Shown here piece by piece: positions 1 to 20,239 of a DNA stretch of 21,159 nt. Position 1 is the stretch's first letter, and the number at the start of each line of letters is the position of its first letter. The notes under the pieces are model-generated. The model was not told where the DNA came from, ran no database searches, and saw only the letters and a program-made list of their open reading frames with translations. Source of the DNA: a virus; IMG/VR virus record IMGVR_UViG_3300005617_000266, positions 1-21,159 of that record. The stretch is one strand, 5' to 3'. The translations under genes were made by a program, and so were the position numbers.

Positions 1-178
1 CGGCGATGAGGTGGCCCAACTCCAGGACGAGCGCCATCATCGCCTGTCCGCGCTCCTGGAGGGGCGTGCGCACGTTTGTGAGCCCGGCCCGGCCGTGGGT
101 GATGACCCGGCCGTCCGGCCAGGCGAGCGCGGTAGCGGTCAGCGAGGGGTCCCCGCCGACCACGAGCGGGGCGCTCAC
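1..178 (-). CDS. RuvC-like Holliday junction resolvase, N-terminal part (cut by window edge)
   Basis: GTG 178 overlaps the preceding TGA (GTGA), and 59 residues are visible before the left edge. The opening 'LVVGGDPSLTATALAWPDGRV' matches the first strand of RuvC/RNase-H-fold resolvases ('vlGiDpSLt.tG.a'), with Asp10 as the expected first catalytic metal ligand. 'RTPLQERGQAMMALVLELGHLI' fits the following helix, where the family has '...eRl..i...l..li'. It would cut branched DNA from replication or recombination before packaging. The remaining catalytic residues lie outside the window, so activity cannot be judged. Confidence 0.6.
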   Translation of the reverse strand, partial: MSAPLVVGGDPSLTATALAWPDGRVITHGRAGLTNVRTPLQERGQAMMALVLELGHLIA

Positions 179-330
179 CGCCGGTCCCAGTGGGCCGCGA
201 TCGCCACGCCGCACACCCCGCAGAGCCCGGCCAGCACCAGCCACGGCAGGTCGAGCCCGGCCAGGGCGAGCACGATGCAGGCGAGCAGGACGACGAGGAG
301 CGCGCCGACCACGGCGGGGCGGCGGCTCAC
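175..330 (-). CDS. Small two-TM membrane protein (51 aa)
   Basis: GTG 330 overlaps the previous TGA (GTGA) and the gene ends with TGA overlapping the next GTG. The product starts with the basic MSRRP, has two hydrophobic helices (about 6-24 and 30-48, AVVGALLVVLLACIVLALA and PWLVLAGLCGVCGVAIAAH) and ends WDRR. It is almost entirely membrane-embedded. Small hairpin membrane proteins of this kind in phage early operons can act in superinfection exclusion or as toxins, but nothing here decides its role. Confidence 0.6.
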   Translation of the reverse strand: MSRRPAVVGALLVVLLACIVLALAGLDLPWLVLAGLCGVCGVAIAAHWDRR

Positions 331-740
331 TTGCCCTCCAGCAGGTTCGCGAACCGTTCGAACGCCTGAGTGATTCCCAGAGCGATCGGCGCATTGATTA
401 TGGCGTAGGAGTTGGCCACCTCGCGGGCCGCCTGAGCCACGGTGGGCGGCTCCGCCGTCCGCTGGGCAGCCTCGACCTCGGCGCGCAGCCGGGCAAGAGT
501 CCCGTACGCCTCCAGGCGGGCCGTGACGTGCTGAGGGGCGGCGGCCACCGGCGCGGCCACGACCGCGCGGAGCTGCTCGGCGGCGCCCTCGGGGGTGAGT
601 CTCATCAGGGGACGCCGCGCCCACTCGTCGGCGAGGTTGAGCACGGCGGCGAGCGCCCCGGCGAGCACGTCGCGCTCCTGCGCGTGCTGGTCGCGGGCGC
701 GGCGGACATCCTCGAACGGCTCCGGGGGGATCATGGTCAT
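327..740 (-). CDS. Hypothetical helical protein (137 aa)
   Basis: ATG 740 overlaps the double-HTH stop (ATGA). The product is almost entirely alpha-helical: 'FEDVRRARDQHAQERDVLAGALAAVLNLADEWAR' and 'HVTARLEAYGTLARLRAEVEAAQRT' are amphipathic with some heptad character, so oligomerisation is possible. It ends 'AIINAPIALGITQAFERFANLLEGK'. I recognise no domain. It lies between regulatory and resolvase-like genes, in one fully coupled operon. Confidence 0.55.
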   Translation of the reverse strand: MTMIPPEPFEDVRRARDQHAQERDVLAGALAAVLNLADEWARRPLMRLTPEGAAEQLRAVVAAPVAAAPQHVTARLEAYGTLARLRAEVEAAQRTAEPPTVAQAAREVANSYAIINAPIALGITQAFERFANLLEGK

Positions 741-1177
741 GACTGGCTTCCTTCCTGGACGCTGGCGCCGCGACGGTCCTTGTTGTTGACGATGCGGGAG
801 ACGGTCGCCACGCCGAGGCCGGTCCGGCGGGAGATCTCGTGCTGGCTGTCCCCGTCGGCGTGCAGGCGCCGCACCCGCAGGATGTCGTCGGCGGTGAGGG
901 TGCGCCGGCCGCCGCCGAGCTTCCACGCGTCCCGGTAGGCCTCGATGGTGACCGTCCACCAGTACCGGATCGGCTGGCCCTCGGCGTTGCGGGCCGGACC
1001 GTCCGGCTCGGGGAAGGGCACGCGGGCGGTGCCAGCGCGGGTCCGGTGCAGCCGCACGTCAAGGGTGCTGCGGCTGATGCCGAGCAGCGCGGCGGCACCG
1101 TCGGTGTCGAGGGCTTCCCCGTGCTCGGGGTGCGGCTCCGGCCACTCCCCGAGTGTGGTCATCTTGTCGAGGCTCAT
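737..1177 (-). CDS. DNA-binding protein with two helix-turn-helix motifs (146 aa)
   Basis: ATG 1177 is fixed by the ATGA overlap with the zinc-ribbon gene. Residues about 24-85 (DTDGAAALLGISRSTLDVRLHR...PIRYWWTVTIEAYRDAW) look like the MerR/excisionase-type HTH used by recombination directionality factors, although the sequence between helix and wing is long. Residues 94-135 (LTADDILRVRRLHADGDSQHEISRRTGLGVATVSRIVNNK) match the HTH_Hin/recombinase-tail type ('l....v..ir.l...G.s..eIA...gvs..tV.rI...'). Two different HTH units in one small protein suggest an early regulator or a recombination accessory protein. It is coupled to the next gene by ATGA. Confidence 0.7.
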   Translation of the reverse strand: MSLDKMTTLGEWPEPHPEHGEALDTDGAAALLGISRSTLDVRLHRTRAGTARVPFPEPDGPARNAEGQPIRYWWTVTIEAYRDAWKLGGGRRTLTADDILRVRRLHADGDSQHEISRRTGLGVATVSRIVNNKDRRGASVQEGSQS

Positions 1178-1557
1178 CGAACTTCTTCCCTTTCGAGCTG
1201 CTGTCGTGACCATTCATCACCGCAGCGAAGGCATGTCCAATCGTCTTCGCAGAAAGTCATCTCTTCACTTCCGCACCCCGGACAGCGCGGCGCACGCTCG
1301 GGCTGGCGGTGACCACATTCGCGCGCCGGAACGTTGCACGTGTCGCAGATGTCATTCCAGCCGTACCGCTCGCGGCATGCATCGCGAAGAGCTTGCGGCG
1401 TCTCGCATTCCAGTCGATTGGGCAGCGCATGCGCTTCGTGGTGCGACATGCCGGCGGGGGCGGGAACTGCCTGCCAGCGTCGGCCGGGGCTACTCACCCA
1501 CACGTGCCAGCCGGGGAGCTGTGCGGTCAGCCGGTCAAGCCATGCTTGAGCCTTCAT
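1174..1557 (-). CDS. Zinc-ribbon protein (127 aa)
   Basis: ATG 1557 overlaps the previous TGA (ATGA). The first 65 residues are helical with Trp-rich 'LPGWHVWVSSPGRRWQAVPAP'. Two metal-binding clusters follow: C71-x2-C74 with C81-x-H83, and C92-x2-C95 with C109-x2-C112, the last pair in 'CPGCGSEEMTFCEDDWTCLRCGDEW', a standard zinc ribbon. Such proteins usually bind DNA, RNA or partner proteins in phage early operons. The specific role is unknown. By eye the DNA of this gene is less GC-rich than its neighbours. It is coupled to the double-HTH gene by ATGA. Confidence 0.65.
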   Translation of the reverse strand: MKAQAWLDRLTAQLPGWHVWVSSPGRRWQAVPAPAGMSHHEAHALPNRLECETPQALRDACRERYGWNDICDTCNVPARECGHRQPERAPRCPGCGSEEMTFCEDDWTCLRCGDEWSRQQLEREEVR

Positions 1558-1784
1558 CGGATTTCTTCCCTGATCAGGTGGTAGGCGTCGAGGATGCCGG
1601 CGGCTCTCTCGGCGCGGGCGTGGTCGGTGAGGTCCGGCCATTCCCGCACGGTGATGTCGAGCGTGGTCAGGACGTATGAGGCTGCGAAGCGCTCCGGGTT
1701 GACCGCGCCGATGTGCGCGTACCGGGCCAGGGCGGCGCGGAGGTCCCGCGCCACTCTGGCGGCCGTGTTGGTGCGGATGCTCAT
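1554..1784 (-). CDS. Hypothetical small helical protein (76 aa)
   Basis: ATG 1784 overlaps the preceding stop by 4 bp (ATGA) and its own TGA overlaps the next gene the same way. The product is all-helical, 'NTAARVARDLRAALARYAHIGAVNPERFAASYVLTTLDITVREWPDLTDHARAERAAGILDAYHLIREEIR', with no membrane segment, cysteine or known motif that I can name. The tight coupling on both sides shows that it is a real gene of the early-type operon. No function can be given. Confidence 0.6.
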   Translation of the reverse strand: MSIRTNTAARVARDLRAALARYAHIGAVNPERFAASYVLTTLDITVREWPDLTDHARAERAAGILDAYHLIREEIR

Positions 1785-2869
1785 GCTCGACCGTCCAGGA
1801 TCTGGCGGACCTCGACCGGCATGAACGCAACGGCCAGGTTGAGCCGGCGCTCAATCTCGGCGGTCAGCTCGTAGTGTCGCGCCCAGCGAACCTTGTCGAC
1901 CCGGCCGGCGGTGTCCTGGGCGGCGTCGACCGCCTCGTTGATCGCGTCATTGATCAATTGGCGGAAAGGCCGGGTCGGCGGCACGATCGGCAACGCCTTG
2001 CGGTCAGCGCGACCGGTGAACAGGTCGGCGGCGAGCCGGGCGTCATCGCGGGCGGTGTACTCGTAGGGCGCTTCACCCTTGGCGAACTTCTCCAGCTCCG
2101 CGTGCAGCTCCGTCACGTACGCCTCGTATTCGGGGGTGCCCTTGGGGAACTTCGGTTCGGCCACCTCGACGCCACGGGCATAGGCGTGGATCTGCGTATC
2201 GTCCGCCAGCTCATCGAGGCCGTGCACGATGTTGGCCGGGTTGTGGCCGCGCTCGACGTGCTCGATCAGCGCGGCGTTGCGCGCCTCGCAGATCACGGTG
2301 TCGAGGTCGATGCCGGCGGCCTTGAAGCCCTCGCGGGTCAGCCACTGCCGACCGAAACCGTCGATGTAGACGATAGGGGTGATGATGCCCTTGCCGACGA
2401 GCGCGGCAGACGTGATGGTCGGAATCGCGTAACTACTGAAGTACCCCCGGCAATCCAGGCCGCTCACGCGATTGATCGCCGACCACTGGGCGTCGGTGAG
2501 CTTGACCGGCTTCGCGACGGGCGTGGCCTCGGGCTCCTCGACGTACGAGGGCCGATCCAGCGACGTGATCCAGTCCACCGCAAGGGGACCGCACCAGCCC
2601 ATCTCGCCGGTGCTCACGTGGTTGGCGTCGGTCAGCGGGTAGTTGTTCATGACCTTGTTCGGCTGGTCGGTCTTCGTGACCATGACGCCCTGCACGACGC
2701 GGACCGTCTCGGCGGACGTGTCCCGACGCTGCTCGACGACGCGGACGAGCAGCCGGCGCGGGCGCTCGGTGGGTCGGCCCAGCTTGCGCGACCACTTCGT
2801 GTCGCTCCAGGTGATGACGTCGCCGGGCTGGACGTCGTCCCAGCTTTGCGGCTTCGGCTTGAGGCTCAT
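1781..2869 (-). CDS. Hypothetical protein with possible winged-helix segment (362 aa), first gene of left operon
   Basis: I chose ATG 2869 because GGGAG lies 6 nt upstream and because the promoter start falls after the longer in-frame extension. Residues 1-110 are beta-rich with a 'WDDVQPGDVITWSDTKWSRK' opening of the kind seen in small barrel domains. Residues about 124-186 (LTDAQWSAINRVSG...ALVGKGIITPIVYIDGFGRQWLTREGFKAAGID) look like a winged-helix-type unit with the usual 'L...G.i.......yylT..G' ending. The C-terminal 150 residues are charged and helical. I do not recognise the family. Position behind its own promoter suggests an early or regulatory gene. It overlaps the next gene by ATGA. 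Confidence 0.6.
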   Translation of the reverse strand: MSLKPKPQSWDDVQPGDVITWSDTKWSRKLGRPTERPRRLLVRVVEQRRDTSAETVRVVQGVMVTKTDQPNKVMNNYPLTDANHVSTGEMGWCGPLAVDWITSLDRPSYVEEPEATPVAKPVKLTDAQWSAINRVSGLDCRGYFSSYAIPTITSAALVGKGIITPIVYIDGFGRQWLTREGFKAAGIDLDTVICEARNAALIEHVERGHNPANIVHGLDELADDTQIHAYARGVEVAEPKFPKGTPEYEAYVTELHAELEKFAKGEAPYEYTARDDARLAADLFTGRADRKALPIVPPTRPFRQLINDAINEAVDAAQDTAGRVDKVRWARHYELTAEIERRLNLAVAFMPVEVRQILDGRA

Positions 2870-2907
2870 GTGGTGCTCCCTGGGGTGTGGGCTCAACTGA
2901 CAGGGCG

Positions 2908-2937
2908 AGCTTACATTGGGAACACGCCGAATGTCAA
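2908..2937 (-). promoter_or_regulatory. Sigma-A-type promoter for the left operon
   Basis: On the minus strand, TTGACA (2937-2932), an 18-bp spacer and TAAGCT (2913-2908) form a good vegetative promoter (-35 perfect, -10 fits TAnnnT). Transcription should start near 2901, giving a leader of about 32 nt that contains the GGGAG site before ATG 2869. This is the clearest promoter in the window. Confidence 0.7.
2913..2934 (-). promoter_or_regulatory. Inverted repeat in promoter spacer, candidate operator
   Basis: ACATT (2934-2930) and AATGT (2917-2913) are inverted copies 12 bp apart and overlap both promoter boxes. A dimeric repressor bound here would block RNA polymerase. The half-sites are only 5 bp, so chance is possible. 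A natural candidate binder is the double-HTH protein encoded four genes downstream. Confidence 0.35.
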
Positions 2938-2980
2938 GCCGCCCCGGCCACCGCCCCCGCCGGGCGACGACCGGGGCGGC
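2938..2980 (-). terminator. Terminator hairpin at end of late operon
   Basis: Arms 2971-2980 (GCCGCCCCGG on the minus strand) and 2938-2947 are exact reverse complements, 10 bp, with a 23-nt GC-rich loop. The hairpin follows the holin stop by 22 nt and has no U-tract. Its distal arm touches the -35 box of the next promoter, so it separates late from early-type transcription. Confidence 0.65.
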
Positions 2981-3002
2981 CTGCATCCCCGGGTGAAAAG
3001 CC

Positions 3003-3266
3003 TTACTTCCGCGAGCCTCCGTCACCGACCGGCGGCACCGGGGCGAGCGGGTAGCCCTCGGCGCTCTTCGGGTCGGCGACCGGGGTGGCCGCCTGCCACG
3101 CCTTCACGGCCGTCCACAGCAGCGCGACGAACGCGGCGACGGCCGCGACCCAGTGCGCCACCCCCGCCGGCAGGACGTGGAACGTCGAATCGACCTGGAG
3201 CAGTGCGCCCAGCACGGTGGCGATCACCGTCAACCAGACCACCGGCTGGAACTTGAAACCCTTCAT
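3003..3266 (-). CDS. Predicted holin, 2-TM (87 aa)
   Basis: ATG 3266 overlaps the preceding TGA by 4 bp and has AGGAAGGGGAA upstream. Longer versions of this frame would run through the 3-TM gene. The product has two membrane helices, about 8-27 (VVWLTVIATVLGALLQVDST) and 33-55 (PAGVAHWVAAVAAFVALLWTAVK). They are separated by a short turn, and a hydrophilic Pro/Asp tail follows (ATPVADPKSAEGYPLAPVPP...). The size, hairpin topology and place at the end of the lysis cassette are those of small class II-like actinophage holins, which let the endolysin out. It is the last gene before the late terminator. Confidence 0.6.
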   Translation of the reverse strand: MKGFKFQPVVWLTVIATVLGALLQVDSTFHVLPAGVAHWVAAVAAFVALLWTAVKAWQAATPVADPKSAEGYPLAPVPPVGDGGSRK

Positions 3267-3577
3267 GACCGTTCCCCTTCCTCGACGTTCGACGCCTCGC
3301 GCCGCCACCGCACACGATCCCGCGCCACCAGCCACAGACGCCAACCAAATGCGAGATCCTGCACGGTCAGGGCGAGCAGTAGCACCCACGGCGCCACCTG
3401 GGCGCCCAGGATCGCGACGAACAACACCCCGTCCACCGCGATCGCCGCCCACCCGGTCGAGGCGAGGAACCAGGCCATCGCCTGGTCGCGGTGACGCCAC
3501 GGCGGTCCCAGGATCAGCACGAACAGTAGCGACAACGCCACCGACGCCCCGAGGAGCAGCTCAAAGGCCAGTCTCAC
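3263..3577 (-). CDS. Predicted 3-TM membrane protein of lysis module (104 aa)
   Basis: GTG 3577 overlaps the stop of the 63-aa gene (GTGA). Three hydrophobic segments are visible: about 5-26 (FELLLGASVALSLLFVLILGPP), 33-56 (AMAWFLASTGWAAIAVDGVLFVAI) and 62-84 (PWVLLLALTVQDLAFGWRLWLVA). A charged tail follows (RDRVRWRREASNVEEGERS). A small, positively tailed, three-helix protein next to an endolysin is holin-like, but several actinophage families of small membrane proteins look alike, so holin or antiholin cannot be decided. It is coupled to the next gene by ATGA. Confidence 0.55.
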   Translation of the reverse strand: MRLAFELLLGASVALSLLFVLILGPPWRHRDQAMAWFLASTGWAAIAVDGVLFVAILGAQVAPWVLLLALTVQDLAFGWRLWLVARDRVRWRREASNVEEGERS

Positions 3578-3765
3578 AACGCCCCCGGTCGAAACGCCCT
3601 TGACACCCGATCGACGAACTCGTCACGTGGTAGCGGCTTCGCCGCCTCCCGACGGACCTGCCCGGCCTGCCGCTGCGCGGTCCGGAGTTGTTCCTCTGCC
3701 CGCTCGCGGACCTCTTTCGCGTCGCCGTTGGGCCGGTGTCGACGCAGCCACCGGGGCCACCTCAC
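3574..3765 (-). CDS. Small basic helical phage protein (63 aa)
   Basis: GTG at 3765 overlaps the preceding TGA in GTGA, which fixes the start. The product begins MRWPRWLRRHRPNGDAKEVR and continues with 'AEEQLRTAQRQAGQVRREAAKPLPRDEFVDRVSRAF'. It has an arginine/tryptophan-rich basic start and a long helix. I recall similar 60-70 aa proteins ('...arerAeeqL.a.raq...v..l...l....n.fae.i..al') next to holin genes in actinophages and prophages, but their function is not known to me. The Trp/Arg patch could lie on the membrane surface. It ends in another GTGA overlap with the 3-TM gene. Confidence 0.6.
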   Translation of the reverse strand: MRWPRWLRRHRPNGDAKEVRERAEEQLRTAQRQAGQVRREAAKPLPRDEFVDRVSRAFRPGAL

Positions 3766-3989
3766 GATGGCCTCTGTTGCCGGCCCATGAGTTCGCTGAT
3801 CTGCCGCTCGCGCTCTTTCACCGTCGCCTCCAATGCGGCGATCGCCGCTTTGAGGTCGCTCACCCTGTCGAGGTGGACGGTACGCGAAATGAGGCGCCCA
3901 GTCATGACGAGCGTGACGATCCAGACGAAGAGGCTTACGAGCAACGTCCACGGGGCGACCTGACCAATCAACGCGTCTCGCAGGCCCAC
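3762..3989 (-). CDS. Small lysis-module membrane protein, one TM plus coiled coil (75 aa)
   Basis: Starts at GTG 3989, immediately after the endolysin TAG and in the same frame, with no spacer and no clear ribosome binding site. Residues about 12-31 (APWTLLVSLFVWIVTLVMTG) form one transmembrane helix. Residues 40-70 (LDRVSDLKAAIAALEATVKERERQISELM) form a clear heptad coiled coil. The plan, N-terminal TM plus cytoplasmic or outward coiled coil, is found in holin-like and spanin-like phage lysis proteins. A holin or accessory lysis role is inferred from position beside the endolysin. It overlaps the next gene by GTGA. Confidence 0.6.
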   Translation of the reverse strand: MGLRDALIGQVAPWTLLVSLFVWIVTLVMTGRLISRTVHLDRVSDLKAAIAALEATVKERERQISELMGRQQRPS

Positions 3990-4307
3990 CTAGGATTTCT
4001 CGGCGTCCTGCGCGGCCTGGAATGAGGCGGGGTAGGTTGCCGCGCGGATCGCGGCCTGACCCTCGTCGGACTTGAGCGCGGCGACCACGGTGGCGATGTC
4101 GACGGGCGCCCCGGAACTGGCCGGTGGCTGGCCGGCGCCGAGCTGGCCCAGAATCTTGATGACCTGGTCGAGCTTGCCACTCAGGATGTTCAGGTTCATC
4201 TTCGCCGCCGCGTCGTTGAGCGGGTCGTTGTCCTGGTCGGCGTAACCGGCCGTCGAGAACCCGCCGATCAGCAGGTTGACGATGTCGTTGACTTCCTTCG
4301 ATGACAT
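3990..4307 (-). other. Candidate internal translation start giving a 105-aa C-terminal endolysin fragment
   Basis: Within the endolysin gene, Met170 (ATG 4307-4305, 'MSSKEVNDIVN') is preceded by GGAGAGGA about 8 nt upstream. It falls exactly at the boundary between the M15 domain and the C-terminal helical domain. Several Gram-positive phage endolysins make a second, shorter product from such internal starts that assembles with the full-length enzyme. Here it is inferred from the site and its placement only. Confidence 0.4.
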
Positions 4308-13154: not shown

Positions 13155-13730
13155 TTACACCTCGTCGGTGATCTTGAATGGGGCGGTGACGGTGTCGATG
13201 TAGTGGCAGCCGAACGTCACCGGCACGAGCGTCATGTCGCCCTTCTTGTATGCCGTCTCCACGTTGTCGATGCTCAGGCACCGGCGCAGTGTGAAGCGCC
13301 GCCGCTTGCTGACCCCGGCCGCCGAGGCCGGCGCGAGACCGTCGAGGATGACGGCGAAATAGGTGGGCTGCAGCTCGTTGCCGTTGAACACCGGCGTGTA
13401 TTCCTTGTAGCCGGAGCCGGTGCTGATCGTGCCGGAGTTCAGGCCGATCGTCAGGTTCTCCAAGGTGGACTCGGCCAGGTTGGTCTTGACCTGCACGTCC
13501 CGCTGGGTCATCTTGCGGCCGATGATGTCGGAGATCTGGTCCACCGCCATCGTCGCGAACTCCTGGTTGAGCATGATCGTCGAGCCGTCGTCGGTGAATC
13601 CGGCGTCCGTCCACGCGGAGGCCTGCGGCGCCTGGTTGACGGCGGCGCTGGTGGGCTCGGTCGCCTGGTACAGACCCGTGTAGAGCGAGGCCGCACCCAT
13701 GATCACCTGGTAGGCCAGCTTATTGGCCAT
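13155..13730 (-). CDS. Major tail (tail tube) protein
   Basis: This is predicted to polymerise into the tail tube through which DNA leaves the phage. The 191-aa product starts at ATG 13730 with AAGGGAAGGGAAA upstream. It is beta-rich with 'WTDAGFTDDGSTIMLNQEFATMAVDQISDIIGRKMTQRDVQVKTNLAESTLENLTIGLN', the typical tube-protein passage where a strand-rich domain meets 'q..v.v.t.laE.tlenl..al'. The later 'PTYFAVILDGLAP' and 'RRFTLRRCLSIDNVETAYKKGDMTLVPVTFGCHYID' fit the closing strands of the family. The gene sits between terminator and chaperone genes, the normal order, and is followed by a perfect 12-bp inverted repeat. Confidence 0.85.
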   Translation of the reverse strand: MANKLAYQVIMGAASLYTGLYQATEPTSAAVNQAPQASAWTDAGFTDDGSTIMLNQEFATMAVDQISDIIGRKMTQRDVQVKTNLAESTLENLTIGLNSGTISTGSGYKEYTPVFNGNELQPTYFAVILDGLAPASAAGVSKRRRFTLRRCLSIDNVETAYKKGDMTLVPVTFGCHYIDTVTAPFKITDEV

Positions 13731-13760
13731 TGTCTGTTTCCCTTCCCTTGGCTGGCATGA

Positions 13761-14237
13761 TCACAGGGCCGTCCAGCTCACGGACAGCGTGAAACCGTAA
13801 CGCGCGTAGTTCGCCTCATCGCCCGGCCGCCGTTCCGGCTCGGTCAGTGCGGACCCGTCGGCGACCCGCGCGGTGCCGTACCCCGTCGGCAGTGTCACCG
13901 GCCTCTGGGTGTCCTTCAGGTCCACGTGCTGCGCGGCCCGGATGATGGTCGAGGCGATCGAGGCGGCCCGCCCCCACGGGGGTCGCGACTTGCCCACGTT
14001 GGTGGCGTAACAGTCGATCGACAGGACCGGCTGGCGCATCGGCACCGTGGGGTTGATGGAGCCGCCGACCACGAGGGCCGTGACGAAGCCGGTGTCGCCC
14101 CACGACAGTTCGAGGGTCTCCGGGTCGGGCCCCTGCAATGTGGTGCCGGCAGCCACCCCGTAGGCGGTGACGATGTCGCGGATCCAGGCGAGGGTGACCA
14201 ACTCCGAGTTCGCCAGCAACGGCAGCGCGAGCGCCAT
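13761..14237 (-). CDS. Tail terminator protein (158 aa)
   Basis: ATG 14237 overlaps the acetyltransferase stop in TGATG (GTG 14240 is the in-frame alternative). The protein begins 'MALALPLLANSELVTLAWIRDIVTAYGVAAGTTL', then 'TGFVTALVVGGSINPTVPMRQPVLSIDCYATNVGKSRPPWGRAASIASTIIRAA', and ends in 'YARYGFTLSVSWTAL'. This is the usual plan of siphovirus tail terminators: a mixed alpha/beta start, a 'P.i.i...g......a..la..v..a' core and a closing beta strand. The family caps the tail tube when the tape-measure length is reached and joins the head. Its position directly before the tail tube gene supports the call. Confidence 0.75.
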   Translation of the reverse strand: MALALPLLANSELVTLAWIRDIVTAYGVAAGTTLQGPDPETLELSWGDTGFVTALVVGGSINPTVPMRQPVLSIDCYATNVGKSRPPWGRAASIASTIIRAAQHVDLKDTQRPVTLPTGYGTARVADGSALTEPERRPGDEANYARYGFTLSVSWTAL

Positions 14238-14703
14238 CACGCACCTACCGGGCGGTACATGGTTTCGCTGATCTCGTAGTCCCGATTACGACCCTTGTTC
14301 TCGATGAAGCCGAACCGCTTATAGAACTTGATCAATCGTGGCTTGCTGCCACCGAAATCGGACGACGGGGTAAGCGCCACCACATCACCCTGGCGGTCGG
14401 CCAGTTCGACAAGTTGGCGCATGACGGCTGTCCCGGTGCCGGCCGACCGCACGGGCGCCACGATCGAAGACAGCACAATCACTCCGCTGGAAGTGCGAGC
14501 AACTGCGAGCTTCAGCCCAGGGTGCTCACTCCGCATGCGAGCGGCAAACGCCTCGACAGCACCCCGCTTTGCCTCGGGGGTGCGGGCCATGGCGTCGGCG
14601 ACATGTTCCAGGCCGCGCACACCTGGCGCGTCAGTAAACTCGCCCGTAGCGGGGTTGCGTGGATGCTGTCGCTCCTGCTCCGGCCCCCAGTCCATCACGC
14701 ACC
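14234..14703 (-). repeat. 12-bp direct repeat bracketing the GNAT gene
   Basis: The minus-strand sequence GGTGCGTGATGG occurs at 14703-14692 and again at 14245-14234. In each copy it encodes the last Gly-Ala, the TGA stop and the overlapping ATG of the next gene. Removing one copy plus the intervening DNA would join the gp10-like gene to the tail terminator with a perfect TGATG coupling, so the repeat probably marks the insertion or excision joint of a moron-like gene. Confidence 0.7.
14237..14695 (-). CDS. GNAT-family N-acetyltransferase inserted in the neck module
   Basis: The 152-aa protein starts at ATG 14695 in a TGATG overlap (an in-frame GTG at 14698 is the alternative). Residues 83-88 (RSAGTG) fit the acetyl-CoA-binding R/Q-x-x-G-x-G/A signature after the strand 'VIVLSSIVAP'. 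Residues 121-130 (LIKFYKRFGF) fit the family's 'FYxxxGF' motif. It should transfer an acetyl group from acetyl-CoA; the acceptor is unknown. The N-terminal 'HPRNPATGEFTD' recalls the '(R)d..GrFt' motif of phage morphogenesis proteins. The gene separates two genes normally adjacent, is flanked by a 12-bp direct repeat (14234-14245 and 14692-14703), and its 3' part is GC-poor: 51 of 100 bases at 14261-14360 against 76 of 100 at 13801-13900, counted by hand. This looks like a late acquisition. Confidence 0.7.
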   Translation of the reverse strand: MDWGPEQERQHPRNPATGEFTDAPGVRGLEHVADAMARTPEAKRGAVEAFAARMRSEHPGLKLAVARTSSGVIVLSSIVAPVRSAGTGTAVMRQLVELADRQGDVVALTPSSDFGGSKPRLIKFYKRFGFIENKGRNRDYEISETMYRPVGA

Positions 14704-15090
14704 GGCCAGGGAGCGGCGCTGATAGAGCGCAGGACGCATAAAAGGCTGCTCGGGGGTGCCCGGGTGGTGCACGACCGGGCCGAAGTACTCGCCCGTCTCA
14801 GGGTTGTGCAGCGAGTAGTCACCGCGCGCGCGGATGATGTGCGGCGGCGAGCCGTACTCGGTTTCTTGCCAGTGGTCGGTGCCGACCTCGACCACGCCGA
14901 TCAGGTCACCCGGGTAGCGTTCCTTGATCGACTCGAACAGCTCGCCCGAGTCGTACGGGCAGCCGGCCCGCGCGTCGTCGGCGACCGCCTCGGTGACCCG
15001 CTTGACGTTGGCGCCCTGGTGGACCTTGAACCACGCCGGGTAGCCGGCGCTGACCCGGAGGTTCGAGTAGCGTGCGCTGGCGCGCGCCAT
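14695..15090 (-). CDS. Neck / tail-completion protein, HK97 gp10-like (131 aa)
   Basis: I chose ATG 15090 over GTG 15099 because GAGGAGG lies 8 nt upstream of the ATG but would touch the GTG. The sequence matches the gp10-like pattern. A helical start leads into 'AVADDARAGCPYDSGELFESIKERY' (usual 'A...aP.dTG.L..Si'). This is followed by 'VEVGTDHWQETEYGSPPHII' (usual 'vg....YA.yvEfGt....') and 'PFMRPAL' near the C-terminus (usual 'PFmrPAl'). The family connects head and tail in siphoviruses. The stop overlaps the start of the acetyltransferase gene in TGATG, so the two are translationally coupled. Confidence 0.75.
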   Translation of the reverse strand: MARASARYSNLRVSAGYPAWFKVHQGANVKRVTEAVADDARAGCPYDSGELFESIKERYPGDLIGVVEVGTDHWQETEYGSPPHIIRARGDYSLHNPETGEYFGPVVHHPGTPEQPFMRPALYQRRSLAGA

Positions 15091-15134
15091 GGGGGCCACC
15101 TCCTCTGCGTCGGCGGTCGTCGTGGTCGGTGCCC

Positions 15135-15170
15135 GGCCGGTCTGCCCGGCCTGGTGGACTGCCCACCTGG
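15135..15170 (-). promoter_or_regulatory. Two adjacent, overlapping hairpins between head-closure and gp10-like genes
   Basis: The first hairpin has arms 15163-15170 and 15150-15157 (8 bp with one A-A mismatch, loop GCAGT). The second has arms 15146-15151 and 15135-15140 (GGCCGG/CCGGCC, loop GCAGA). They share two bases (15150-15151), so both cannot form fully at once. They occupy the only sizeable gap of the neck module, before the strong GAGGAGG site of the next gene. An attenuator or RNA processing site is possible, but the role is not shown by sequence. Confidence 0.4.
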
Positions 15171-15174
15171 TTTG

Positions 15175-15516
15175 TCAGGTTACCTTACGAACGGTCACGC
15201 GCCGAGAGGTGTGGCCGGCCGGATTGCTCGGCGTGGTCGGATCGTCCACGGTGTCGAAGACGTAGACGGCGCCGGTGCGCTCGTCGCGGATCCGGTCGTA
15301 TTTGCGCAATTCGTAGGTGGGCGCCATCCGCAGCGTGTACGAACGCACCTGGTCGGTGCGCCCGTTGACCGGCCGTGAGCGGGAGTTGAACGGCCCTTCC
15401 ATGATCGAAGCCGGCACCCGGTCGTAGACCACGATGTCGACATCCACGGGGTCGTCGAACCGGTCGGTGCCGGCGCCGCGCAGCACCGTCACCGTGGTCC
15501 CGGCCCGCCATGTCAT
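15175..15516 (-). CDS. Head closure / head-tail stopper protein (113 aa)
   Basis: ATG at 15516 overlaps the adaptor's TGA by 4 bp, which fixes the start; longer versions of the frame would run inside the adaptor gene. The product 'MTWRAGTTVTVLRGAGTDRFDDPVDV...' is a small beta-barrel-like protein, with 'YELRKYDRIRD.RTGAVYVFDTV' resembling the SPP1 gp16-like head-closure family ('...dri...dG..y.V.g.p...'). It should close the head after DNA packaging and bind the tail terminator. Family identification rests on length, gene order and this pattern, not on a search. The 84-nt gap after it contains two hairpins. Confidence 0.65.
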   Translation of the reverse strand: MTWRAGTTVTVLRGAGTDRFDDPVDVDIVVYDRVPASIMEGPFNSRSRPVNGRTDQVRSYTLRMAPTYELRKYDRIRDERTGAVYVFDTVDDPTTPSNPAGHTSRRVTVRKVT

Positions 15517-18211: not shown

Positions 18212-20176
18212 TTACAGCGCGAGCCACGTCCAGGTGGGCGCGGACGAGTAGGTAAGAGTGATGGTCTTCCCGGCGGGCACGATGACGGTGTGGCCGGTGG
18301 AGGTGTAGCCGGTCGCGGTGCCGGCCACCGCGATCGCGGAGACGGTGCCGCCGTTGACAATGACGACGCAGTCACGCGCGAACGGGTTGGTCAAAGGCGT
18401 GGTGCTGGCCGGCACCGATGGTGCGGCTTTCGGTCCGGGTTCGCCGCGCTGGCTGACGCACAGTACCTTCAGGTTGGCGCCACCGTTGAACACCGGCGCC
18501 GCGTCGAGCGTCTCCGTGTAGTAGACGACGCCGTGCAATGCGTTGTTGGCGTCGTCGACCCAGGAGCTACCGATCGACTCCATGGCGAGCTGACCGACGA
18601 ACAGCGGCCACGAGGAGCCCGGAGTGGCCGAGGTCTGGAAGACGTGCTGGGCGGCCTCGACGGACATGTTGAGGATGGTGCAGCCGTGGAAGCTCCCGCC
18701 GCCGATGGCAATGAACACCGCCACGTTGGTATAGATGGCGGCAAATCTGCTCGCGGTGAAGTGCTCGCCGACCGACGTGGAGTAGTAGAACCCTTCGATT
18801 GCCACGTCGTCGAAGAACGCGCAGTCGTTGTTGCCGTTCTGCGGCGCGCGCAGGCCGATGCCGAGGTCGTTGGTGGGGGTGGTCGTGATGCTGGGCGAAC
18901 CGACCGCCGGGGCGTTGGCCAGGCAGGCGAGGGAGCCGCCGGCCTGCGCGCAGTAGCGCAGGTCGACCGCGATGATGCCAGGGTTGACCGGTGCCATCAC
19001 GGTGAGGCCCCGGAAGACCACCTTGAGGTTGCTGAAGATGCCGGAGCCCTGCGCGATGGTGGGCCCGCCAATGATGCTCGGCGCGAGCCACGTCGGGTCG
19101 GACGCCAGCCCGGTCAGCGTGGAGCGCACCACCGCGCCGGAGCGCTGGGCCACGGTTTGCTGCCAGTGCACGAAACCGGTGGCGTCCTCGGTCTCCCCCC
19201 GAAAGACGATGATGAATTTCTCATCGGTTGTCGCGACGACCGGTAGGGGGATCTGCGCGTTGCCCTGGGTGGCACCACCCTTGGTGGTCGCCGCCGAAAC
19301 GATGTACTCCCCGACCGGAAAGAAGATCTCCGCGTACGAGGTGCCGCTCGCCGTCTCGGCCGTGAACGCCGCGCTGACCGCCGCGTTGATCGAGGCGGTG
19401 TCGTCGGTCGAGCCGTCACCCTTGGCGCCGTACAACTTGACGTTGTAGCGGCCGGGCTTGGCCGTGAGGTTCGTCCAGTTGGTCAAGGCGAACGTCGAGC
19501 CGGACGTGTGAGCGGTCGTGCAGTAGAGCAGCTCCCCGCCGAGGGTGGCGAGGTCACCGACGGCGTACGCGGTCGCGGCAGCCCACGCGCCACGCACATT
19601 GATGGTGCTGGCCGGCGGCTGCCAGCTCACGCCCTCGGGTGCCGTGTCGTCGGCGGTGAGCACCCGGCCGTTGACAGCGGCGGCCAGGCGGGTGATAAGG
19701 CCGGCGCCGGTGCCGACGATGAGGTCACCCTTGGTGGTGACCACCGTCTTGGCGATGGCGCCCACGTCGTCGGCGTCAAAGCCGGTGATGATGCCGGACT
19801 GGCCGTTGATGCTGTTGACGACGGTCACGGGCGTTGCCTCCCGGGTGGTGGACGACCGGAGGCGGGCCACGCCGTACAGCAGTCGTTCGGTGCGGTCGCC
19901 GTCAGTGATGATCAGGTCGTAGACACCGCTGCGCCACGCCATGGCCGAGGTCAGGTAGTCGGGCACGCTCGCGGTGACCTGGGCGGTGGCGCCGTCCACC
20001 GCGACGTCGGCGGTGGCGAGCACCGTGGCGGAGTCGGCGGTGGGCCGGATCTGCATGGCGCCAGTCCACCCGGCCAGGTCAGTGCGCGGGTCGACCCCCC
20101 CGGCGTCGAGGACCTCGGCGACGATCTCAAGGGTGGCACCCTGCTCGACGAGGATGTCCAGGCGGGTCGCGACCAT
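18212..20176 (-). CDS. Beta-helix fibre / tailspike-like protein (pectate-lyase-type fold), possible head fibre
   Basis: The 654-aa protein starts at ATG 20176, chosen because AGGAAAGGGG lies just upstream; a longer in-frame extension to 20212 has no such site. Residues 1-110 form a BppU-like N-terminal virion-attachment type domain ('LDILVEQGATLEIVAEV', 'GVYDLIITDGDRTERLLYGVARL'). Residues 147-188 carry the phage-fibre motif 'TTKGDLIVGTGAG...NGRVLTADDT'. Residues 192-240 look like a small carbohydrate-binding module ('AYAVGDLATLGGELLYCTTAHTS'). From about 246, 'KLYGAKGDGSTDDTASINAAV' is the classic opening of the pectate-lyase-3 right-handed beta-helix. The last 45 residues (VNGGTVSAIAV...TITLTYSSAPTWTWLAL) resemble a C-terminal cap common in actinophage minor tail proteins. 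It probably binds or cleaves a surface polysaccharide. Its place directly after the capsid gene, far from the tail-tip genes, is odd and allows a capsid-anchored role. Confidence 0.7.
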   Translation of the reverse strand: MVATRLDILVEQGATLEIVAEVLDAGGVDPRTDLAGWTGAMQIRPTADSATVLATADVAVDGATAQVTASVPDYLTSAMAWRSGVYDLIITDGDRTERLLYGVARLRSSTTREATPVTVVNSINGQSGIITGFDADDVGAIAKTVVTTKGDLIVGTGAGLITRLAAAVNGRVLTADDTAPEGVSWQPPASTINVRGAWAAATAYAVGDLATLGGELLYCTTAHTSGSTFALTNWTNLTAKPGRYNVKLYGAKGDGSTDDTASINAAVSAAFTAETASGTSYAEIFFPVGEYIVSAATTKGGATQGNAQIPLPVVATTDEKFIIVFRGETEDATGFVHWQQTVAQRSGAVVRSTLTGLASDPTWLAPSIIGGPTIAQGSGIFSNLKVVFRGLTVMAPVNPGIIAVDLRYCAQAGGSLACLANAPAVGSPSITTTPTNDLGIGLRAPQNGNNDCAFFDDVAIEGFYYSTSVGEHFTASRFAAIYTNVAVFIAIGGGSFHGCTILNMSVEAAQHVFQTSATPGSSWPLFVGQLAMESIGSSWVDDANNALHGVVYYTETLDAAPVFNGGANLKVLCVSQRGEPGPKAAPSVPASTTPLTNPFARDCVVIVNGGTVSAIAVAGTATGYTSTGHTVIVPAGKTITLTYSSAPTWTWLAL

Positions 20177-20209
20177 CCGGGCCCCTTTCCTCGCCGCTGG
20201 ATGTGGATA

Positions 20210-20239
20210 CACCCGGCGGCGGTGGCTCGCCGCCGGGTG
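20210..20239 (-). terminator. Perfect 12-bp hairpin after capsid gene (second of two)
   Basis: Arms 20210-20221 (CACCCGGCGGCG) and 20228-20239 are exact reverse complements around a 6-nt loop. It lies between the capsid stop and the ribosome binding site of the fibre gene, with no U-tract. Actinobacterial terminators often lack one. It could terminate or attenuate transcription, or stabilise the 3' end of the capsid message. Confidence 0.6.

Follow-up and report, generated by a model that had tools for sequence, protein, structure and literature searches.

The stretch of viral DNA analysed here (the window; 21,159 nucleotides, positions 1 to 21,159 of IMG/VR record IMGVR_UViG_3300005617_000266) belongs to an uncultured phage, probably of actinobacteria, and carries on its minus strand a gp10-like (Neck1) gene, a GNAT acetyltransferase gene and a tail terminator gene, in that order. 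The 12-mer GGTGCGTGATGG (minus strand) is present in two exact copies, one at each border of the 152-aa acetyltransferase gene; its plus-strand form, CCATCACGCACC, lies at 14234-14245 and 14692-14703, with no other exact copy in the window. In both copies GGT GCG TGA closes the upstream gene and ATG G opens the downstream one, and the Gly-Ala-stop-ATG arrangement pointed out in a preliminary description, made from the letters alone, proved exact at both borders. The features of the locus are the following.

14695 to 15099, minus strand: gp10-like or tail completion (Neck1) gene, the upstream neighbour (phrog_5, E 1.3e-9; HK97-gp10 family match sub-threshold).
14692 to 14703, minus strand: repeat copy 1, GGTGCGTGATGG, the last two codons and stop of the gp10-like gene (GGT GCG TGA), overlapping the GNAT ATG; identical to the single copy in the relative L011.
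14237 to 14695, minus strand: GNAT acetyltransferase gene, 152 aa, its ATG in copy 1 and its TGA in copy 2 (Acetyltransf_7 family, AF2 model, PDB fold matches).
14246 to 14691, minus strand: unique part of the insert, 446 nt, absent from L011 and in frame from copy 1 to copy 2.
14636 to 14665, minus strand: HPRNPATGEF, an N-terminal linker motif of the GNAT protein that conforms to HPRxxxGxF; the relatives L024, L030 and L048 have a motif of this type.
14252 to 14563, minus strand: residues 45-148, the conserved GNAT domain, with homology reaching as far as Arg148, 6 nt short of copy 2.
14234 to 14245, minus strand: repeat copy 2, GGTGCGTGATGG, which closes the GNAT gene (its final two codons and stop) and overlaps the ATG of the tail terminator gene.
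13761 to 14237, minus strand: tail terminator gene, the downstream neighbour (phrog_123, E 5.7e-5; tblastn matches to annotated tail terminators).

Elsewhere in the window, positions 18212-20212 (minus strand), between the capsid and neck genes, encode a pectate-lyase/tailspike-like protein of 666 aa that weakly matches a carbohydrate-binding module; this is an unusual place for a tailspike, and the protein is possibly a head fibre or decoration protein. Both strands of the left end (1-3256) bear long ORFs, which have about 70-75% G+C and match no family.

A 12-nt repeat is not rare in itself, since the window contains 15 exact direct repeats of at least 12 nt within 1 kb where a first-order Markov model predicts 4.65, and taken alone it is weak evidence; what is rare is its position and its presence as a single copy in L011. 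Given TGATG at both junctions, the chance that seven extra bases match is about 4e-4.

The preliminary description had suggested looking for a relative whose two neck genes are joined directly by a single 12-mer, and such a genome came to light. In L011 (IMGVR_UViG_3300028831_000013) one GGTGCGTGATGG both ends the gp10-like gene and starts the terminator gene, the GNAT gene is absent, and the gp10-like protein is 87% identical to that of the window. L011 aligns with the window in two blocks, 1-1091 (84% DNA identity) and 1080-4083 (80%), whose overlap is exactly the 12-mer, and a single recombination between the two repeats gives exactly the L011 sequence. Not all relatives, then, carry the gene between divergent borders. 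Two scans of 2.9 million viral contigs, which used degenerate patterns, one for either side of the junction, returned only one empty relative (L139, the L011 contig) and one occupied relative (L140). The occupied contig IMGVR_UViG_3300044709_000182 has two 12-mer sites and the GNAT gene and is 98.1% identical to the window, with three differences within the GNAT gene, all of them synonymous. As the occupied state recurs in this separate contig, the insertion is real and no assembly artefact.

The codon usage of the GNAT gene is foreign to the genome in which it lies. Its GC3 is 0.719, against 0.868-0.957 in 15 other genes of the window, and encoding its amino acids in the phage's own codon usage would be expected to give 0.894 (minimum of 5000 draws, 0.797). 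The difference in G+C noted previously, 51 of 100 at 14261-14360 against 76 of 100 at 13801-13900, was reproduced to the base, and the 100-nt stretch with the lowest GC anywhere in the window begins at 14259, inside the gene. By its atypical composition and its place between genes that are adjacent in relatives, the gene resembles a moron, as first proposed, although it is not one in the strict sense of a unit with its own promoter and terminator: a scan of 13700-15250 for the sigma-70 consensus only found no promoter-like site, no terminator-like site was found within the insert, the insert is entirely coding and the GNAT gene overlaps both neighbours. Since no promoter was found in the insert, the GNAT gene is expected to rely on its operon and on coupling in order to be expressed.

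The GNAT fold proposed for the product is weakly indicated by the single protein, which scores E 0.011 against Pfam, below the cut-off, and strongly by its family, in which 60 of the 62 aligned members match the Pfam GNAT model Acetyltransf_7, and by its predicted structure. The AF2 (AlphaFold) model has a pLDDT of 81.8, with about 95 in most blocks and a disordered N-terminal stretch of 25 residues, and its Foldseek matches in the PDB are GNATs, with E only about 2e-3 and a probability of about 1.0. The residues of the acetyl-CoA loop (RxxGxG/A), R83, G86 and G88, are conserved in 57, 62 and 61 of 62 members respectively, Tyr125 and a family-specific C-terminal stretch (FYKRFGF..NKG......MYR) are also conserved, and Arg148 is invariant. 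By loop and fold together, the protein belongs to the GNAT superfamily. The anti-CRISPR protein AcrVA5 (PDB 6iuf), also a small GNAT, reaches a target-normalised TM-score of 0.71, unsurpassed among the fold matches listed; the similarity is one of fold only, with a profile E of 0.59 that amounts to no significant sequence match, nothing points to a Cas target, and kinship was rejected. An assignment as an anti-phage defence gene was likewise dropped, as there was no PADLOC match, as was one as a toxin-antitoxin system, as there was no partner gene.

The family to which the protein belongs consists mostly of internal domains of large phage proteins. Its PHROG match, phrog_10691 (E 4.6e-30), falls at positions 2685-2794 of 3925 in a family of giant phage proteins, and members of the family turned up at 304 viral and 17 genome loci in an alignment-based scan. 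The domain lies in open frames of at least 200 aa in 90 of 98 related loci examined, in DarB-like or PLxRFG proteins, in polyvalent proteins with InPase and ART domains, in DUF2213 head maturation proteases and in portals. GNATs of polyvalent proteins were described by Iyer et al. (2017), who grouped them with the RimI-like enzymes, mentioned solo versions and predicted that the polyvalent GNATs are packaged and injected (PMC5512222); the family found here is taken to be one of those. At 152 aa, with one domain and a short linker, the window protein is a solo relative and not a polyvalent protein itself, which would unite at least two domains of different activity. Other solo relatives lie beside a T4-type major capsid gene (L080:1634-4019, with the GNAT gene directly downstream) and beside a head-tail adaptor gene (L083).

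The insert looks like a linker joined to a complete domain and cut at the domain end. The alignment ends at residue 148 in 73 of 98 relatives, and in the window Arg148 is followed by Pro, Val and then the Gly-Ala-stop of the repeat. At the other end, the HPRxxxGxF motif also precedes the GNAT domain in a DUF2213 head-protease fusion (L024), where it stands at the protein N-terminus, and in two portal fusions (L030 and L048); 4 occurrences were counted in 143,406 residues, where shuffled sequences gave 0.015. Linker and domain lie further apart in the window (29 residues) than in these three relatives (11-13). The resemblance of NPETGEY, in a neck protein, to the NPATGEF of the linker is probably due to chance. 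Both portals (L030:2147-4930 and L048:2384-5737) carry a C-terminal HPRxxxGKF linker and GNAT, and in L030 a second linker follows the GNAT, leading to a further C-terminal part that is ART-like by eye and has no Pfam match. The polyvalent protein L064:3203-8278 has modules (GNAT, ART and others) split by five linkers of the GPRGGKWxDxxHTIPW type, with a 16-nt linker stretch identical on both sides of its GNAT module, a possible basis for short-homology module shuffling.

The last 129 nt of the domain have 82% DNA identity to a DarB-like gene of Serratia phage Parlo, in a match that ends at the Arg148 codon. This had prompted the idea of a gammaproteobacterial origin, which was abandoned because this conserved stretch is 75-88% identical in many phages. 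Polyvalent-protein genes of Serratia, Halomonas and other phages match the 3' 130 nt of the GNAT gene (14246-14380, minus strand) at 75-88% DNA identity, a similarity far higher than that of the 5' half, and this part could provide homology for domain exchange. Searches for the donor found no relative above about 61% aa identity over the domain outside the same lineage, one weak match in plasmids and, among 395 genomes from the Rhodococcus class, no more than the solo copy already known plus two matches due to chance; a tree of 80 domains left the window GNAT (P0001) unplaced. In a Neptunomonas prophage (L096), MYR-P-V-G-A with GGTGC stands at the place that matches the end of the window GNAT, so the Gly-Ala codons may stem from the donor. 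From this ending and from the N-terminal linker of L024, the donor fragment may have carried a start or a stop of its own.

Whether the gene was gained or lost is answered by more distant relatives. The preliminary description had held that the gp10-like and tail terminator genes are normally adjacent, and in about 25 further neck loci identified by a profile survey (some of them near-duplicates) the two genes overlap or lie within 45 nt of each other in all but one, with a GNAT gene between them in none. Streptomyces phage Zuko and Microbacterium phage OscarSo are among these GNAT-free loci. A gain in the window lineage is therefore favoured as much the simplest reading; of the two alternatives left by the preliminary description, a moron gained or one still able to leave, the first is upheld by the outgroups, while leaving, or any continued mobility, found no support. 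The single exception among the neck loci (L129:2850-3235) has another insert at the same junction, of ~385 nt with two small coupled, overlapping ORFs; repeats of at least 10 nt are absent from its flanks. The gp10/tail-terminator junction may be a recurrent docking site.

These observations are best accommodated by the capture of a 446-nt fragment into the TGA/ATG overlap of the gp10-like and terminator genes, with duplication of that overlap and with an enzyme that would be made late, travel with the virion and acetylate a host protein early in infection, a reading to which we assign a probability of about 0.72. A coding fragment comprising the linker motif and the complete GNAT domain would have entered the overlap, leaving GGTGCGTGATGG on both sides. 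Because one gene stops and the next begins within the 12-mer, both neighbours are intact after its duplication. As the sequence shows, the captured part, 149 codons made up of the 446 nt and the final base of copy 1, has its ATG from copy 1 and GGT GCG TGA from copy 2, and the TGATG stop/start overlap is preserved at both junctions. The duplication could have arisen by fill-in of a 12-nt staggered break, or by two short-homology joins at the same acceptor site, for which a donor like L096 (GGTGC) could have offered homology at that place.

Three other histories were weighed against this one. The exactness with which one recombination between the repeats yields the L011 sequence is also what would be seen if the GNAT gene were ancestral and L011 had lost it by deletion between the 12-mers; as about 25 neck loci, distant Streptomyces and Microbacterium phages among them, lack the gene, this would require repeated independent losses, and the codon usage of the gene is foreign, which makes ancestry very unlikely. 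A small transposable element or cassette, inserted by a transposase that duplicated a 12-bp target, would account for the 446-nt size and for the direct duplication of the empty site, the mycobacteriophage mobile elements (MPMEs) being about 440 bp long (PMC4351075). MPMEs carry inverted repeats and a 123-aa ORF, whereas the sole gene of the insert is an acetyltransferase, with no transposase-type ORF, the outer 40 nt of its two ends share no inverted repeat of 5 nt or more, and the pattern scans gave no second exact copy; the lack of terminal inverted repeats in particular makes a transposase unlikely, and this origin is very unlikely indeed. An ordinary mosaic replacement, in which a related phage that already had the gene in its neck module passed it on together with the upstream junction, the repeat being only the conserved coupling sequence of such junctions, draws on the frequency of TGATG or ATGA junctions in the neck module and of 12-nt repeats in the window. 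It has to contend with the seven bases that match beyond TGATG, with a junction sequence that otherwise varies freely among relatives and with the restriction of neck-borne GNATs to the same lineage, and it merely shifts the original capture one step back; we consider it quite unlikely.

A fourth alternative accepts the same insertion and concerns the job of the enzyme. Under the capture reading, the enzyme would be made late with the virion genes, packaged via its linker tail or riding with the particle, and would acetylate a host protein early in the next infection, by analogy with the proposal for its polyvalent relatives. The preliminary description had allowed for virion or host proteins as targets; as the relatives are domains of polyvalent, portal-fused and protease-fused proteins, a host-delivered effector is suggested rather than a modifier of neck proteins. 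Delivery by the virion, judged from the structural operon, from the linker shared with the portal and protease fusions and from the solo relatives beside capsid and adaptor genes, is put at about even odds. Alternatively, the enzyme might work late in the infected cell on virion or host proteins with no delivery by the particle, or be an inactive passenger, which would suit a protein encoded on its own among late genes, for which no sufficient secretion or capsid signal is known. The occurrence of relatives in portal and head-protease fusions and in giant polyvalent proteins argues for delivery, and an inactive passenger fits poorly with the retained RxxGxG and Tyr125 and with the purely synonymous changes between the occupied contigs, so that this alternative is judged somewhat unlikely.

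Duplication of a short stop/start overlap might also allow phages in general to convert, in a single step, an effector domain from within a large virion protein into a new coupled gene, a generalisation that we regard as doubtful on the present evidence. If it held, any in-frame fragment could become a gene without damage to its neighbours, with stop, start and coupling supplied by the duplicated overlap, and virion operons, in which TGATG and ATGA overlaps are frequent, would be natural docking sites for injected effectors. The locus itself offers a clean before-and-after view of gene capture in a phage structural operon, with empty site, polarity and frame all visible; it connects predicted injected enzymes (polyvalent GNATs and portal or protease fusions) to a solo gene of the neck module, and suggests a simple way for overlapping genes to accept newcomers without loss.

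Several known systems resemble parts of this arrangement. The enzyme family is already documented, and so are genes enclosed by direct repeats of which relatives have a single copy; the GNAT gene belongs to the latter class, one repeat copy joining its neighbours in L011; what is new is the combination, the decided polarity and a repeat that holds both a stop and a start and is able to turn a domain into a gene. The polyvalent GNATs of PMC5512222 are similarly RimI-like, form part of large proteins of (pro)phages, frequently next to an ART domain, and have solo versions elsewhere, whereas the window GNAT is a solo 152-aa gene with a linker only, placed at a stop/start overlap of a neck operon in a probable actinobacterial phage. 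Classical phage morons are likewise single genes of foreign composition between genes that are adjacent in relatives; the window gene differs from them in that it has no promoter or terminator of its own and that its translation overlaps both neighbours.

A close parallel in form is gene 14 of Corndog, a Cluster O mycobacteriophage: direct repeats of 17 bp lie on either side of this gene, and four relatives have just one copy, at the gene junction (PMC4351075). By the paper's description, that gene too is found in one genome, stop and start codons are marked in the figure legend and the same question of gain or loss arises. Corndog gene 14 encodes a putative Xis-like DNA-binding protein, whereas the cargo here is an enzyme module in a neck operon, and the shorter repeat (12 bp against 17 bp) holds a stop and a start codon, with outgroups that decide for gain. 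Inserts between direct repeats that are single-copy in relatives are also represented by YungJamal gene 60, which has imperfect direct repeats of 24 bp and lies among virion structural genes (PMC4351075), and by LRRHood genes 43-46, which lie between 29 bp direct repeats (PMC3029335). The former is antisense and has no function assigned, the latter is a 1.35 kb insert with a repressor gene, and neither is described as a captured enzyme domain, as the GNAT gene of the window appears to be.
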